Position numbers and translations under genes: made by a program. A stretch of DNA of 64,000 nucleotides from an uncultured Opitutia bacterium (GTDB taxonomy: Bacteria > Verrucomicrobiota > Verrucomicrobiia > Opitutales > Opitutaceae): the NCBI GenBank assembly GCA_903873805.1, contig CAIQQB010000132.1, positions 1 through 64,000 on the forward strand, read 5' to 3'. The notes under the pieces were generated by a model that was given only the letters and a program-made list of their open reading frames with translations, did not search any database and had not been told where the DNA came from. Each line of letters opens with the position of its first letter. Positions within the stretch are counted from its first letter, which is position 1. This document shows positions 5,047 to 61,753 of the stretch, one piece after another.

Positions 5047-5107
5047 CAAGTGCGTTCTGTTGGGTGAGACGTTGGCTTGCTGTCATTCGCGACGGTTCGG
5101 ATGAAGC

Positions 5108-5165
5108 CGCGACGCCCTCGTCGCGGGGATGGCCGGTCGGAGAAAACGCGACGAGGGCGTCGCGT
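5108..5165. repeat. Facing pair of ACGCGACG hairpin repeats
   Basis: Left copy 5108-5125 (CGCGACG-CCCT-CGTCGCG) and right copy 5146-5165 (ACGCGACG-AGGG-CGTCGCGT) are each hairpins, and over 18 bases they are perfect inverted copies of each other. Further copies lie at 15851-15870, 30994-31013 and 46239-46258. Confidence 0.85.
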
Positions 5166-5200
5166 CCTCAGTTTGGCGGGCGCAGCAAGTCTTCCCCGCC

Positions 5201-5713
5201 TCACGGCAGCAGCAGCAAATCCTCCAGTGTCATCTTGACCAGCAGGCCCTGCTGGAGGACATCGACGGATAGGATGATGCCCTTGGGATTTTGGGGATCG
5301 TCCACGATGCCTTCGAGGCCGCGCAACGGGCCGCCGGTCACGCGCACGCGTGAGCCGCGCTTGATCAGCGGATGCAGGCTGAGTTCCAACCCCGACGCGA
5401 CGATCAGCTTCACATCGCCCAGCTGCCGCAGGAATCGCGATTCGTCGTCCACCGGAATGACGCGGGCGAGGAGATCCTGCTGGTAGACGCGGTTTTTCCG
5501 TTCGGGCGGGACGAGGGCGAACACGTAGCCGGGAAACAGCGGCTTGGTGAAGCGCTTGGTCTGCGTGCCGTAGCGCCGTACGCTGCGGATCAGCGCGAGA
5601 TAATGCTCCAGCTTTTCGGCCGCCAGCAGCGCGGCGAATTTCTTTTCGCAGCGCGGCCGGGTATGGCAGACCCACCAGCGGGGCACATCGCCCGGAGCCG
5701 GGTCGGGAATCAT
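5201..5713 (-). CDS. NusG-family transcription elongation/antitermination protein (RfaH/UpxY-like)
   Basis: The 170-residue protein has a NusG N-terminal (NGN) domain at about residues 11-110 (WWVCHTRPRCEKKFAALL; TKRFTKPLFPGYVFA) and a C-terminal KOW motif (IKRGSRVRVTGGPLRGLEG) at about 118-138. NusG proteins bind RNA polymerase and modulate pausing and termination. The housekeeping nusG normally sits with secE and rplK; this one sits behind aroQ, overlapping it by ATGA, so it is more likely a specialised paralogue of the RfaH/LoaP/UpxY kind acting on particular operons. No target operon is evident here. It could still be the only NusG; the rest of the genome would decide. Confidence 0.85.
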   Translation of the reverse strand: MIPDPAPGDVPRWWVCHTRPRCEKKFAALLAAEKLEHYLALIRSVRRYGTQTKRFTKPLFPGYVFALVPPERKNRVYQQDLLARVIPVDDESRFLRQLGDVKLIVASGLELSLHPLIKRGSRVRVTGGPLRGLEGIVDDPQNPKGIILSVDVLQQGLLVKMTLEDLLLLP

Positions 5714-15177: not shown

Positions 15178-15259
15178 GGCGCGCGCGGAAGGCAAATGCG
15201 AAGACGCGGCGGCGGCAAGATTTGGCGGGGCCCGGCGCAGGTAGCCGGCACCCTGGCAG

Positions 15260-16405
15260 CTAAGCACGCTTGGTGAGCCGGGCGAAAAGATCGAGGTAGT
15301 GTTGCGCGTGGCCGTCCGGGGAGAAGGCGTTGTGTGCGAAGTCGCGGGCCGGGGCGGCGAGGGCGGCCCGCCGGCCGGGGTGGGCCAGGAGCGGGGCGAG
15401 GGCGGCTAGAAAGGCGGCATCGTCTCCGGGGGCGATGGCCCAGCCGGTTTCGCCGGGCCGGAAGCATTCGCGGACACCGCCGACCGCAAAGGCGACGACT
15501 GGGAGACCGTGCGCCTGGGCCTCGATGAGAAAGTTGGGCAGCGACTCGGATTGGGAAGTGAGCACGGCGACATCGGCGGCGCGGTAGAGCGGGGCGGGGT
15601 CGGATTGGAAACCGAGAAATTTCACGCGGTCGGCGAGGCCGAGCTGCCGGGCGAGCGCGGTGCAGGCCGGGCGGGTTTCACCCTCGCCGACGAGCCAGAG
15701 CTGCCAGTCGGCGTCGCGCGGCAGGAGGGTCGCGAGGGAGATGAGAGCGCGCTGGTTTTTCTCCGGTCGGAACATGGCGACGCAGAGCAGAACGGTGGTC
15801 GAGGGCGTGGCGGCGTGGGTGGCGCGGAGGGTTTCGCGGGAGTATTCGGAACGCGACGGGGGCGTCGCGTCCCCAATGCGGGGTGGGGGAACCCCACCTA
15901 CATCGGAAGCGGAATCGGAAGGGAAAACGAGGGAGTTGTGGATGACGGAGATCTTTGCGGCGGGGATCGCATAGTTGTCCGCAAGCACGCGCGCGGCCTC
16001 GTGGCTGTTGGCGACGATGTGGCGGACGTTGAGCAGCGAACGGCGGAAAAGAGCAGGCAGCTTCTTGCCCGTCCGCATGGTGCCGATTACGGCGGTCGCG
16101 GGCAGTATCCGCTGGAGTCCGCCCGCGCGACAGTTCGCCATGCGCCCCATGCAGATAATGATGTCGGGGTGGAAACGGGTGGCAAAGCGCGCCAGCCCCG
16201 GGGCAAACCAGTCCAGGCGGGTGTCGAACGGCTGGAGGCTCCGGCGGGCGACGGGGGCGGCCACGGTGCCGGCGAGTGGACCGCTTGGGCGGAAGGTCAA
16301 CAGCGTCACCGCGTGCCCGGCGCCGGCGAAGGCGTTGGCGAGCAGCACTGACTGGCGTTCGGTGCCACCGCTGCGGAGATAGTCTTGGAGGACGAGGATT
16401 TTCAT
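15260..16405 (-). CDS. Glycosyltransferase family 4 (GT-B fold)
   Basis: A 381-residue GT4-type enzyme transferring a sugar from an NDP donor, probably in surface polysaccharide synthesis. Start MKILVLQDYLRSGGTERQS at 16405 has the family glycine-rich acceptor loop. The C-terminal donor domain shows FRPEKNQRALI and the E-x7-E type segment ESLPNFLIEAQAHGLPVVA. Between the two domains, around residues 170-185, the chain contains GVPPPRIGDATPPSRSE. This is encoded by two dispersed hairpin repeats (15851-15902) that are read in frame. Donor and acceptor cannot be told. It is a lone gene following the divergent holin-like gene. Confidence 0.88.
   Translation of the reverse strand: MKILVLQDYLRSGGTERQSVLLANAFAGAGHAVTLLTFRPSGPLAGTVAAPVARRSLQPFDTRLDWFAPGLARFATRFHPDIIICMGRMANCRAGGLQRILPATAVIGTMRTGKKLPALFRRSLLNVRHIVANSHEAARVLADNYAIPAAKISVIHNSLVFPSDSASDVGGVPPPRIGDATPPSRSEYSRETLRATHAATPSTTVLLCVAMFRPEKNQRALISLATLLPRDADWQLWLVGEGETRPACTALARQLGLADRVKFLGFQSDPAPLYRAADVAVLTSQSESLPNFLIEAQAHGLPVVAFAVGGVRECFRPGETGWAIAPGDDAAFLAALAPLLAHPGRRAALAAPARDFAHNAFSPDGHAQHYLDLFARLTKRA
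15851..15902. repeat. ACGCGACG hairpin plus TGTAG hairpin inside a glycosyltransferase gene
   Basis: 15851-15870 is ACGCGACG-GGGG-CGTCGCGT, a perfect 8-bp stem. 15878-15902, on the minus strand, is TGTAGGTGGGGTTCCCCCAC and onward. Both families recur elsewhere in intergenic DNA, at 46239-46258 and 46316-46340 in the same order and spacing class. Here they are part of a reading frame. Confidence 0.85.
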
Positions 16406-18357: not shown

Positions 18358-18445
18358 TGGCGGAGAGAGAGGGATTCGAACCCCCGGGACCTTGCGGCCC
18401 AGCGGTTTTCAAGACCGCCGCAATAGACCACTCTGCCATCTCTCC
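18358..18445 (-). tRNA. tRNA-Ser(UGA)
   Basis: The minus strand folds as a class II tRNA of 88 bases with encoded CCA. Acceptor GGAGAGA pairs with TCTCTCC, followed by G and CCA. The anticodon loop CTTGAAA gives TGA, inside stem CGGT/ACCG. There is a long variable arm (GGCCGCAAGGTCC region) and a T-loop GGTTCGAATCC. Confidence 0.96.
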
Positions 18446-28003: not shown

Positions 28004-28080
28004 GGACCTTTAGCTCAGTTGGTTAGAGCGTTTCCTTGACATGGAAAAGGTCACAGGTTCGAGTCCTGTAAGGTCCACCA
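28004..28080 (+). tRNA. tRNA-Val(GAC)
   Basis: 77 bases with encoded CCA. Acceptor GGACCTT pairs with AAGGTCC, discriminator A. D-arm TAGCTCAGTTGGTTAGAGC; anticodon loop TTGACAT (GAC) in stem TTTCC/GGAAA; T-arm ACAGGTTCGAGTCCTGT. It lies 64 bases after ribF on the same strand. Confidence 0.96.
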
Positions 28081-30993: not shown

Positions 30994-31013
30994 AACGCGG
31001 CGAGGGCGCCGCG
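30994..31013. repeat. ACGCGGCG hairpin repeat (covariant copy)
   Basis: On the minus strand ACGCGGCG-CCCT-CGCCGCGT. Against the other copies (ACGCGACG-CCCT-CGTCGCGT) both members of one stem pair changed from A-T to G-C, so the hairpin is intact. It lies between the argA start and the ccsA stop. Confidence 0.85.
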
Positions 31014-31060
31014 TCCCCACGTGGTCGGGTGCGCTCGCCCCGCCGGCATTTCCCAGCGCT

Positions 31061-46208: not shown

Positions 46209-46238
46209 GGGCGGGGCGGGGTGGGGTGATCCATGGGG

Positions 46239-46258
46239 ACGCGACGCCCTCGTCGCGT
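46239..46258. repeat. ACGCGACG hairpin repeat upstream of zwf
   Basis: ACGCGACG-CCCT-CGTCGCGT, flanked by GGGG and TTTCCGA. Same family as 5108-5165, 15851-15870 and 30994-31013. Confidence 0.85.
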
Positions 46259-46315: not shown

Positions 46316-46340
46316 GGGCCCCCTGCCTACATCAGCGTGC
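46316..46340 (-). repeat. TGTAG hairpin repeat upstream of zwf
   Basis: On the minus strand TGTAGGCAGGGGGCCCTCA and onward. Most similar to the copies at 15878-15902 and 58631-58656. Here, as in the glycosyltransferase gene, it follows an ACGCGACG hairpin. Confidence 0.7.
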
Positions 46341-46393
46341 CAGCCGCATTAGCCTTGCTACCGGGTGCCTGCCTTCGCCAAAACCTCCCCGGC

Positions 46394-47935
46394 ATGGCTG
46401 AAACTGAACGGCATCCTTTTCTGCAGGGCCTGAGCAAGCACCGCGGTGCACCGCCGACCGTCGTCGTCATCTTCGGCGCGTCCGGCGACCTGACGGCCCG
46501 CAAGCTCATTCCCGCGATCTACAATCTCGGCTTCGACGGCCTCCTGCCGGCGGACTTCTTCCTTGTCGGCTACGGGCGCAAGCCGATCGCCGACGATGAT
46601 TTTCGGAAGGACGCCGCAGCCGCCATCACGGAGTTTTCCCGGCGTTCGCTCGATCCGGCCGTCTGGGGCCGACTCGAGCCCAACACCAGCTATATCAGCG
46701 GTGGTTACGACGAAAAGGCGGCGTTCGACCGCCTCGCTCTGCACCTGGCCGACATTGAGAAGAAGATCGGCCGCGAATTGCAGCCGCTGTTCTACATCTC
46801 GACGCCGCCGAATGTCTTCGCCCCCATCCTCGTCAATCTCGGGGCGAGCGGCCTCGCAGCCAAATACCTCGGCCAGCCGCACCACGCGAAGGTGATCATC
46901 GAAAAACCCTTCGGTCGGGACCTCGATTCCGCCCGCGCGCTCAACGCCACCATCCGCTCGGTGCTCGAGGAGCACCAAGTATATCGCATCGACCACTATC
47001 TCGGCAAGGAGACCGTGCAGGACCTGCTGGTACAGCGCTTCGCCAACTCCATCTTCGAGCCGCTCTGGAACCGCGACTTCATCGACTCCGTCCAGATCAC
47101 CGTGGCGGAGGAGGTCGGCGTCGGTTCGCGCGGCGGTTACTACGAGCAGAGCGGTTGCCTGCGGGACATGATCCAGAACCACACCATGCAGCTCCTCGCC
47201 CTCACGGCGATGGAGCCGCCGGGTTCGCTCGATGCCGAGTCAGTGCGCGATGAAAAGGTCAAGGTGCTCAAGGCCATCCAGCCGCTCACCATCGGCCCGG
47301 CGGGCGAAGTCATCCGCGCGCAATACGCCGCCGGTTTGATGGCGGGCAAGCAGGTGCCGGGCTACCGCGAGGAAGAGGGCATCGCCGCTCAGTCCGGGAC
47401 CGAAACCTACGCGGCGCTCCGGCTCTCGATCAACAACTGGCGCTGGCAGGGCGTGCCGTTCTATCTCCGCTCCGGCAAGCGCATGGCCCGGCGCGTGTCT
47501 GAAATTGCGATCAATTTCCGCCGTCCGCCCGGGACGCTCTTCGCCGACGAAAGCGCGCGCTTCGACCTCGCGGCCAACACGCTTTCGTTCCAGATCCAGC
47601 CCGACGAGGGCCTCAGCCTCATCCTCAACACCAAGATCCCCGGCCTCGAGACCCGGACGCAGCCGGTGAAAATGAGCTTCCGTTACGCGGCCACGTTCGG
47701 CTCCAACACCGCCGAGGCCTACGAGCGCCTCGTGCTCGATGCGATGATCGGCGATGGGACGCTGTTCATCCGCGGCGACGAAGCCGAAGCCTCGTGGAAA
47801 CTCTACACCCCCGTCCTCGACTACTGGCGGAGCGTCGGCCGCACCGGCATGGACACCTATGCCGCGGGCTCCTGGGGGCCGCCCGGGGCTGACGCGCTGC
47901 TGGCCAGCCGCGGCCACTGCTGGCGGCAGCCGTGA
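46394..47935 (+). CDS. zwf: Glucose-6-phosphate 1-dehydrogenase
   Basis: First step of the oxidative pentose phosphate pathway: glucose-6-phosphate to 6-phosphogluconolactone with NADP reduction. The 513 residues show the nucleotide motif VVIFGASGDLTARKLIPA, VIIEKPFGRD and the active-site RIDHYLGKETVQDL. LRSGKRMARRVSEI and the late QPDEGLSLILNTKIPG segment are also present. Start MAETERHPF at 46394; the upstream open extension reads into a repeat. It is the first gene of a zwf-opcA-pgl operon. Confidence 0.97.
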   Translation: MAETERHPFLQGLSKHRGAPPTVVVIFGASGDLTARKLIPAIYNLGFDGLLPADFFLVGYGRKPIADDDFRKDAAAAITEFSRRSLDPAVWGRLEPNTSYISGGYDEKAAFDRLALHLADIEKKIGRELQPLFYISTPPNVFAPILVNLGASGLAAKYLGQPHHAKVIIEKPFGRDLDSARALNATIRSVLEEHQVYRIDHYLGKETVQDLLVQRFANSIFEPLWNRDFIDSVQITVAEEVGVGSRGGYYEQSGCLRDMIQNHTMQLLALTAMEPPGSLDAESVRDEKVKVLKAIQPLTIGPAGEVIRAQYAAGLMAGKQVPGYREEEGIAAQSGTETYAALRLSINNWRWQGVPFYLRSGKRMARRVSEIAINFRRPPGTLFADESARFDLAANTLSFQIQPDEGLSLILNTKIPGLETRTQPVKMSFRYAATFGSNTAEAYERLVLDAMIGDGTLFIRGDEAEASWKLYTPVLDYWRSVGRTGMDTYAAGSWGPPGADALLASRGHCWRQP

Positions 47936-60565: not shown

Positions 60566-61753
60566 TCAGGGGGGCGCCGGTTGGGCGGGAGTGGCGGCGG
60601 GCGGCGGGGGTACGTAAACCGTGGCGAGCTGGCGCAGGATCGGTTCGAGGGCGGCGTAATAGTCGGCGTCGGACATGTTGGGCTTACCGGCCTTGAGCTG
60701 TTCGAGCTGGTTTTCGCACTGGTCGCGGAGCTGGAACTGGGCGGCCGTCATGGTGCGTTCGGCGTCGGACACCTTGAGGGTGATGAGCCGGGCGCGGGCG
60801 CCGTCAGCCACGACGCCGTTGGCCGGGTGCTTGGTGAGCCGGGTGCCGGCAAACCATTCGGCGGGGGTGCCGCGTTTGTCTCCGTTGTCGTCGATCATGG
60901 CGTGCTCGCTGGCCATGCGGCCGTTTTCCTTGTAAAACGTCTGGGTCTGTTGGGACGCGGTGACAAAGGCCTCGAGCAGCGAAATCTGCCCGTCCTGGTC
61001 GAGGTCGCTGGCGGGATCGGTGAGGGCGGCGGCGAAGCGCTCGCCAAAGCGGCAGTAGTTGATCTCCCGGCTGTTCTGAGTGGCGGTGATGATGACGCGG
61101 TTCGGACCGGACAATGCGGCGAGGAACGGTTCGCTGGCGGAGCCGCCGTGGATGAAGATGACCGGGCGGGTGACAGGCTTCAGCCACGCGGCGAGCTCGG
61201 CCGGGGTGACGTCGGGACCGCGGAGGTTCATCCGGGCCTCGCGGCCGTCAAACGTACCATGACCGACATAGGCGATCCAGACCGGCGGACCGGAAACGGG
61301 GTCGAGTTTGGCGATCCAGGCCTGGAGTTGGTCGTGGTCGGTGGGGATCTTGTCGCCCTCGGGTGCGAGGCCCAGGACGGTGCAGGTGGCACCGGCCTGC
61401 TGGCAGGCGGTCTCCCAGTTTTTGGCGGCGGCGGCGAAGCCCTGGGTGTAGGTCTCGTCGCCGGGAGCACCGATGATGACGCAAACCTCATGGGAGGGAG
61501 GCAGGGCGGAGGTGGAAGCAGTGGGGGCGGTGGCAGGAGTTTCGGCGGCGCGAAGGGGGAGGGCGAGGGCGAGGAGGGCGGCGAGAAATTGGAGTAGCGC
61601 AGAGCCTGGTCTGCGGTGGTGAACCAAGTTTGCCGCAGTTTGGCTGTAGCCGGGGTCGCCGACCCCGGAGGTTGAGGATTGGATGCCCAAGGAACCGGGG
61701 GCAGCGACCCCCGCTACAGTGTACGGAAACAAACCCGGTGTCTTTAGTTTCAT
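60566..61753 (-). CDS. Secreted caspase-like (C14/C13 fold) protein lacking the catalytic cysteine, with EF-hand
   Basis: 395 residues. The core (about 90-300) has the caspase-like beta/alpha order: HEVCVIIGAPGDETYTQGFA, the His loop VWIAYVGHGTFDGREARMNL, then VIFIHGGSASEPFLAALSG where active members have D-x-C-x-S-G. LSGPNRVIITATQNSREINY and RFGERFAAAL follow. DLDQDGQISLLE matches a 12-residue EF-hand calcium loop. A hydrophobic signal-like segment (LLQFLAALLALALPLRA) lies at about 63-79. Before it, residues 12-40 are encoded by a dispersed repeat pair. The ATG at 61753 overlaps the upstream stop (ATGA), which supports the long N-terminus. Probably a non-peptidase scaffold exported with the upstream VWA protein. 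Confidence 0.75.
   Translation of the reverse strand: MKLKTPGLFPYTVAGVAAPGSLGIQSSTSGVGDPGYSQTAANLVHHRRPGSALLQFLAALLALALPLRAAETPATAPTASTSALPPSHEVCVIIGAPGDETYTQGFAAAAKNWETACQQAGATCTVLGLAPEGDKIPTDHDQLQAWIAKLDPVSGPPVWIAYVGHGTFDGREARMNLRGPDVTPAELAAWLKPVTRPVIFIHGGSASEPFLAALSGPNRVIITATQNSREINYCRFGERFAAALTDPASDLDQDGQISLLEAFVTASQQTQTFYKENGRMASEHAMIDDNGDKRGTPAEWFAGTRLTKHPANGVVADGARARLITLKVSDAERTMTAAQFQLRDQCENQLEQLKAGKPNMSDADYYAALEPILRQLATVYVPPPPAATPAQPAPP
61644..61719. repeat. Facing pair of TGTAG hairpins inside the caspase-like gene
   Basis: Left 61644-61668 (CTGTAGCCGGGGTCGCCGAC and onward) and right 61695-61719 on the other strand (CTGTAGCGGGGGTCGCTGCC and onward) match at 22 of 25 bases, 26 bases apart. 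They are read in frame as AGVAAPGSLGIQSSTSGVGD and onward. Confidence 0.85.

Follow-up and report, generated by a model that had tools for sequence, protein, structure and literature searches.

The window, that is, the whole stretch of 64,000 nucleotides analysed here, which is part of a 3.78-Mb draft Opitutaceae genome (G000), contains five hairpins that are members of a palindrome family of about 90 copies and are not chance structures. We conclude that these hairpins are very probably REP/REPIN-like miniature elements that have been spread as single-stranded DNA hairpins by a RAYT (TnpA_REP), a transposase of the HUH/Y1 family. In the mechanism that we propose, the RAYT would bind and cleave single-stranded DNA hairpins with a TGG[GA]G head, a perfect 8-bp stem and a CCCY loop, and the mobile form would be an inverted doublet in which the heads point outward and the units are separated by a few to some tens of bases. 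One end of the doublet would be A-type (A-T foot) and the other C-type (C-G foot), the difference lying in the foot pair. The enzyme would need the perfect stem, the fixed loop and the head while tolerating the sequence of the stem; matched pair changes would persist, and mismatched stems would be lost or fail to spread. Cleavage at the head and single-stranded transposition are steps that we infer for the GG-headed elements.

Hairpins in the window and their copies in the genome

All five hairpins of the preliminary description are present in the window, with some corrections of coordinates and stems (Table 1). The copy placed at 30994-31013 lies one base further on, at 30995-31014, and reads ACGCGGCG-AGGG-CGCCGCGT. 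The first copy, which had been given a 7-bp stem, has a stem of 8 bp with a C-G foot pair in place of A-T, and it thus represents a second compensatory change that had been missed. Of the loops reported as CCCT, CCCC and AGGG, the last disappears when every unit is read with its head at the 5' end, since all loops are then CCCT or CCCC. The GGGG noticed in front of the stem belongs to the conserved head TGG[GA]G, while TTTTCCGA, noticed after the stem, is not conserved; the sole conserved base 3' of the stem is a T at +1 (63%). When the head is placed 5', the unit consists of TGG[GA]G, the 8-bp stem, the CCCT or CCCC loop and an unconserved tail.

Table 1. Coordinates of the REP-like units in the window and of the reading frame that carries one of them
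Feature	Position	Strand	Details
C-type REP-like unit, left half of inverted doublet	5102..5126	+	degenerate head TGAAG 5102-5106; hairpin CCGCGACG-CCCT-CGTCGCGG 5107-5126
A-type REP-like unit, right half of 5.1-kb doublet	5146..5170	-	hairpin 5146-5165 (ACGCGACG/CGTCGCGT); degenerate head TGAGG 5166-5170
A-type REP-like unit	15851..15875	-	hairpin 15851-15870; head TGGGG 15871-15875; within glycosyltransferase frame
A-type REP-like unit, stem ACGCGGCG	30995..31019	-	hairpin 30995-31014; head TGGGG 31015-31019
A-type REP-like unit	46234..46258	+	head TGGGG 46234-46238; hairpin 46239-46258
Glycosyltransferase (GT4) reading frame with in-frame GG-headed REP and adjoining GTAG-headed REP	15259..16405	-	

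The 5.1-kb doublet sits between two convergent genes, PgpA (end 4886) and NusG-like (5201-5713), and the unit at 46234 lies between a UPF0102 gene (end 46208) and the glucose-6-phosphate dehydrogenase gene (46337-47935). The unit at 30995 is intergenic between two minus-strand genes, being 3' of a cytochrome c assembly gene and 5' of an amino-acid kinase/GNAT gene. In the GT4 frame, both REPs are placed in the linker between the two domains, the GTAG-headed one at about 15880-15900. GTAG-headed REPs of other families were also seen in the window at 61645 (+), 55402 (-), 58631 (+), 40887 (+) and 57610 (-), in addition to the one in the GT4 frame; their heads and stems are exemplified by TGTAG-CCGGGGTC-GCY-GACCCCGG and TGTAG-GCGGGGTG. 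When the window was compared with the Rfam families, no hairpin matched above the gathering score. The Rfam matches in the window were two tRNA genes only, at 28004-28077 (+) and 18361-18445 (-).

In the genome, 21 exact matches to the 20-bp palindrome were counted versus none for the reversed pattern, and the one-sided pattern TGGRGNCGSGRCGCCCY, which comprises head, left arm and loop, gave 68 matches versus none. A covariance model built from 31 copies found about 100 copies at E below 0.05. Direct collection yielded 109 units, 87 of which are GG-headed and make up the family of about 90 copies; the remaining units belong mainly to a sister family with GTAG/GTGG heads and the stem GCGGGGTG. 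The GG heads were TGGGG in 67 units, TGGAG in 16 and CGGGG in 4, and the loop was CCCT or CCCC in 102 of the 109 units. The hairpins are thus palindromes in the range of 20 to 40 bases that are dispersed at high copy number, in line with the Nunvar/Di Nocera definition of REPs. In a relative, five units in the same orientation form a tandem array with a period of 115 bases (G197:C75:6321-6809).

A resident RAYT gene flanked by the same hairpins

The same genome carries a RAYT gene (L036) at C165:6413-6682, which is one of several Y1-type transposase genes there. Its protein matches the Pfam family Y1_Tnp and scores 89.2 bits against NCBIfam NF047646 (REP-associated tyrosine transposase), for which the cut-off is 80, and its nearest solved structure is TnpA_REP (4er8). 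With the motifs HVH and NYVAMNPV, the protein has the HUH motif, the catalytic tyrosine and the above-threshold profile match by which RAYT/TnpA_REP proteins are recognised. The order around the gene is C-type (-), A-type (+), gene, C-type (-), A-type (+), and the same palindromes therefore stand as inverted repeats on both sides of the RAYT gene, as is expected of REPs. Relatives of L036 in other genera, at 61-69% identity (L206, L207/L153 and L209, with L207 and L153 having identical flanks), keep the A-type upstream and the C-type downstream.

The ends of L036 and of L153/L207 carry the same combination of stem ACGCGGCG and GGGG head as the unit at 30995. The preliminary description had read this copy as one in which an A-T pair had turned into G-C. 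It is indeed a paired variant, and since the same stem stands at the resident RAYT's own ends, it is not an odd copy but the transposase-linked form, one among ten stem versions; an offshoot that was mutated and then repaired is not the best reading. The reading frame of the upstream hairpin runs on into the RAYT (MGTRRPRRV...), and this hairpin may influence the start of the gene. We also noted that the upstream A-type hairpin has the loop CCCA, and not CCCT or CCCC, at L036 (L036:1366-1440) and at L153 (L153:1503-1526).

Five further RAYT-like genes were found in the genome (L033, L034, L035, L037 and L038), each close to hairpins of its own that have GTAG or GTGG heads and different stems. 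At several of these five genes the upstream and downstream stems are unlike. The other RAYTs of the same order, too, are accompanied by hairpins of their own, which differ in stem and mostly carry a GTAG or GTGG head.

Inverted doublets with unlike ends

In the genome of the window, 21 of 29 close pairs have their heads outward, a count that includes some GTAG-headed units. Two inverted REPs with a short spacer are thus a common unit, as in REPINs, and many units are also single. When the foot pairs were left free in the search pattern, 35 inverted doublets were collected from six genomes. The foot pairs were unlike in 33 of them, 31 of which joined A with C, while the permutation mean was 18.7 and none of 20,000 shuffles reached the observed number. 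The outward A/C doublet has its units placed exactly as they stand at the RAYT gene's two ends, with the gene itself missing. Because its A-type and C-type ends match the RAYT flanks (A upstream, C downstream), we suggest that the doublet may be a non-autonomous element composed of one left-end type and one right-end type. Heterodimers are frequent in other REP families without an obvious explanation, according to Di Nocera 2013 (PMC3733652). Strict two-type doublets are, as far as we could find, undescribed.

Paired changes in the stem

In order to avoid circularity, copies were gathered by head, left arm and loop, with the right arm left free (n=68); a covariation count on copies preselected for pairing was discarded for that reason. 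In 61, 66 and 65 of the 68 copies, respectively, the three variable stem positions were Watson-Crick paired, compared with permutation means of 29.6, 35.2 and 38.4, and none of 2,000 shuffles matched the observed pairing; the copies form related subfamilies of shared ancestry, and these counts are not numbers of independent events. Collecting in the reverse direction led to the same result. The foot pair is A-T, C-G or G-C, position 4 is C-G or G-C, and position 6 is A-T or G-C, and 10 of the 12 possible combinations were found as stem versions, which suggests that several separate paired changes were needed. In this covariation test, which the preliminary description had proposed, the free arm pairs far above expectation and not merely at the expected level, and compensatory change is a property of the whole family.

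It has been reported that short-stem REPs in vitro require a perfect stem and specific loop bases while changes of the stem sequence are tolerated (PMC8266576). A mechanism that tolerates the stem sequence predicts a constant loop and head with stems that change freely yet are always paired, and this is the pattern seen here. The pairing could also have arisen by templated repair, in which one arm of a near-palindrome is copied from the other at replication and a single change becomes a matched pair; this bears on the cause of the pairing and not on the identity of the element. The occurrence of 10 of the 12 stem versions, with matched changes at each of the three positions, would then follow automatically, and a perfect stem would be the end point of such correction. 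However, templated repair cannot restore the loop or the head, and both are constant (102 of 109 for the loop); it also leaves unexplained that the type of foot pair is fixed by its place in the doublets and at the RAYT gene. We regard templated repair as a somewhat unlikely cause of the pairing.

The preliminary description had argued that the fold is either selected or needed for spreading. For the latter there is good support, namely the presence of these hairpins on both sides of the RAYT gene and the carB insertion described below. Selection on the fold is a presumed and not a proved cause of the pairing, because paired changes are also produced when one arm serves as the template for the other.

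Insertion sites and distribution among relatives

An in-frame REP doublet was found in carB (contig C102), where it corresponds to 24 residues versus two in E. coli CarB. In 12 relatives belonging to this family and order the insert is absent, and carB, the one site compared with relatives, thus provides an empty site. In carB of another genome (G003; L246), a different insert of about 17 residues occupies the same place and is possibly a decayed repeat. Other in-frame copies are found in DnaE and in a DUF255 protein. A minus-strand frame for the DNA polymerase III alpha subunit (L140, G000:C29) contains adjoining GTAG- and GG-headed REPs, with the peptide SDVGGVPPPRSATNGGEGAAAP. The DnaE copy was dropped as an empty-site test, as the length of this region varies, and a DNA-level empty site in the genus of G003 was also dropped, as the flanks were too diverged and only the elements matched.

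About 17 of the 87 GG-headed units lie within genes predicted by a simple codon-based caller, which may overcall, and many copies are positioned 3' of genes (35 codirectional, 18 convergent and 8 divergent). The latter positions, and the TTTT that follows two of the window copies, would be expected if the hairpins were intrinsic transcription terminators or stabilisers of mRNA 3' ends, with the stem kept for a function in RNA. However, T falls from 63% to 32% between +1 and +4, leaving no general U-tract, and the units lie in both orientations (21 with and 14 against transcription) as well as inside the 17 predicted genes. A function in RNA also leaves the flanking RAYT, the outward-headed doublets and the carB insertion unexplained, and we consider it very unlikely.

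Among the copies of G003, the common sequence ends at the heads and the flanks are unrelated. Such sharp ends, together with short, inverted and dispersed units, would also suit an ordinary DNA transposon with terminal inverted repeats, of which the units would be MITEs or end fragments. Against this origin, the only enzyme found linked to the hairpins is a RAYT, and conservation is carried by the hairpin, the head and the loop, which makes an ordinary transposon highly improbable as the source. TIRYT elements (subclass 2.1), with the motif GGGGWSAS, were also considered and rejected, as GGGGACGC and GGGGCCGG do not fit.

The covariance model matched 69 of 200 Opitutaceae genomes, with at most 37 hits counted in any one genome. 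Each of the nine genomes that have a close RAYT (E at most 1e-55) contains the hairpins, versus 60 of the 191 others (Fisher p 5e-5), consistent with elements spread by a RAYT. The closed genome G003 (5,957,605 bases) holds at least 147 copies and no close RAYT was found in it, indicating that copies outlive the enzyme.

Comparison with known REP systems

A close likeness is to the GTAG-tagged REPs, including GTAG-20 of Opitutus terrae, a related organism in which these REPs are highly abundant. According to Di Nocera 2013 (PMC3733652), they share with the present family the short tagged palindromes, alternative complementary residues in the stem, many dimers with frequent heterodimers, nearby RAYT genes and insertions inside genes. 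GTAG-20 is described there with GTAG/GTGG heads, whereas the present family has GG[AG]G. In G003, the GG-headed family coexists with GTAG hairpins that lie at a different RAYT.

REPINs (Bertels and Rainey 2011, PMC3116915) are similar in the inverted doublet unit, the spacer, the reported compensatory changes and the link to RAYTs. However, their ends are described as symmetrical, while 33 of the 35 present doublets have ends with unlike foot pairs. The E. coli BIMEs, as summarised in PMC6006769, likewise have two related REP types (Y and Z2) in inverted pairs around TnpA_REP; there the stems are bulged and the heads are GTAG, in contrast to the perfect 8-bp stems and GG[AG]G heads found here. 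Group 3 REPtrons of Stenotrophomonas and Marinomonas, as presented in the accessible text of Corneloup 2021 (PMC8266576), resemble our elements in the perfect short stem (8 bp in Stenotrophomonas), the small loop with essential bases and the tolerance of stem sequence, but their heads are GTAG and GG heads are not reported in that text. Elements of this kind are already known; what is new is the variant head and the strict pairing of two unit types in the doublets.

The head and the transposase residues

Published definitions of REPs demand a GT[AG]G head (PMC3686654, PMC6006769). At the 5' side of the hairpin foot, the GG family and the RAYTs that it flanks carry GGGG or GGAG instead, and we thus file these elements as a REP-like variant and not as canonical REPs. 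The GG[AG]G head is, to the extent of our search, undescribed. Near-identical stem-loops of the form GCGGGGTG-CCCT/CCTT-CACCCCGC have GGAG heads at L214, L218 and L221 and GTGG/GTAG heads at L215, L219, L222 and L223.

When 44 RAYTs were compared, Tyr98 was present in 15 of 15 GG-headed versus 4 of 29 GT-headed ones, and Arg101 or an aromatic residue at 102 in 15 of 15 versus 2 of 29. In the RAYT tree four head changes suffice, two of them on well-supported branches, and the head-residue rule is not significant by independent pairs. The apparent correlation of the head with residues 98, 101 and 102 is thus a lead and not a result. A rule based on a single residue, H101 to R101, fails, as L213, L214, L216, L218 and L221 have GGAG heads with H101.

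We tentatively propose, at somewhat less than an even chance of being right, that the changed guide head (second base T to G) has at least two origins in Opitutales, accompanied by changes in the head-contacting part of the transposase (Tyr98 plus Arg101 or an aromatic residue at 102), and that the doublets are true two-ended mini-transposons with fixed left-end and right-end types. Searches that require GT[AG]G, e.g. in PMC6006769, would miss the GG-headed lineage. Both the choice of head by RAYTs and the unlike partners of doublets are testable here by means of natural variants, and two-ended mini-transposons, if the proposal is true, would account for the high frequency of heterodimers among REP doublets.
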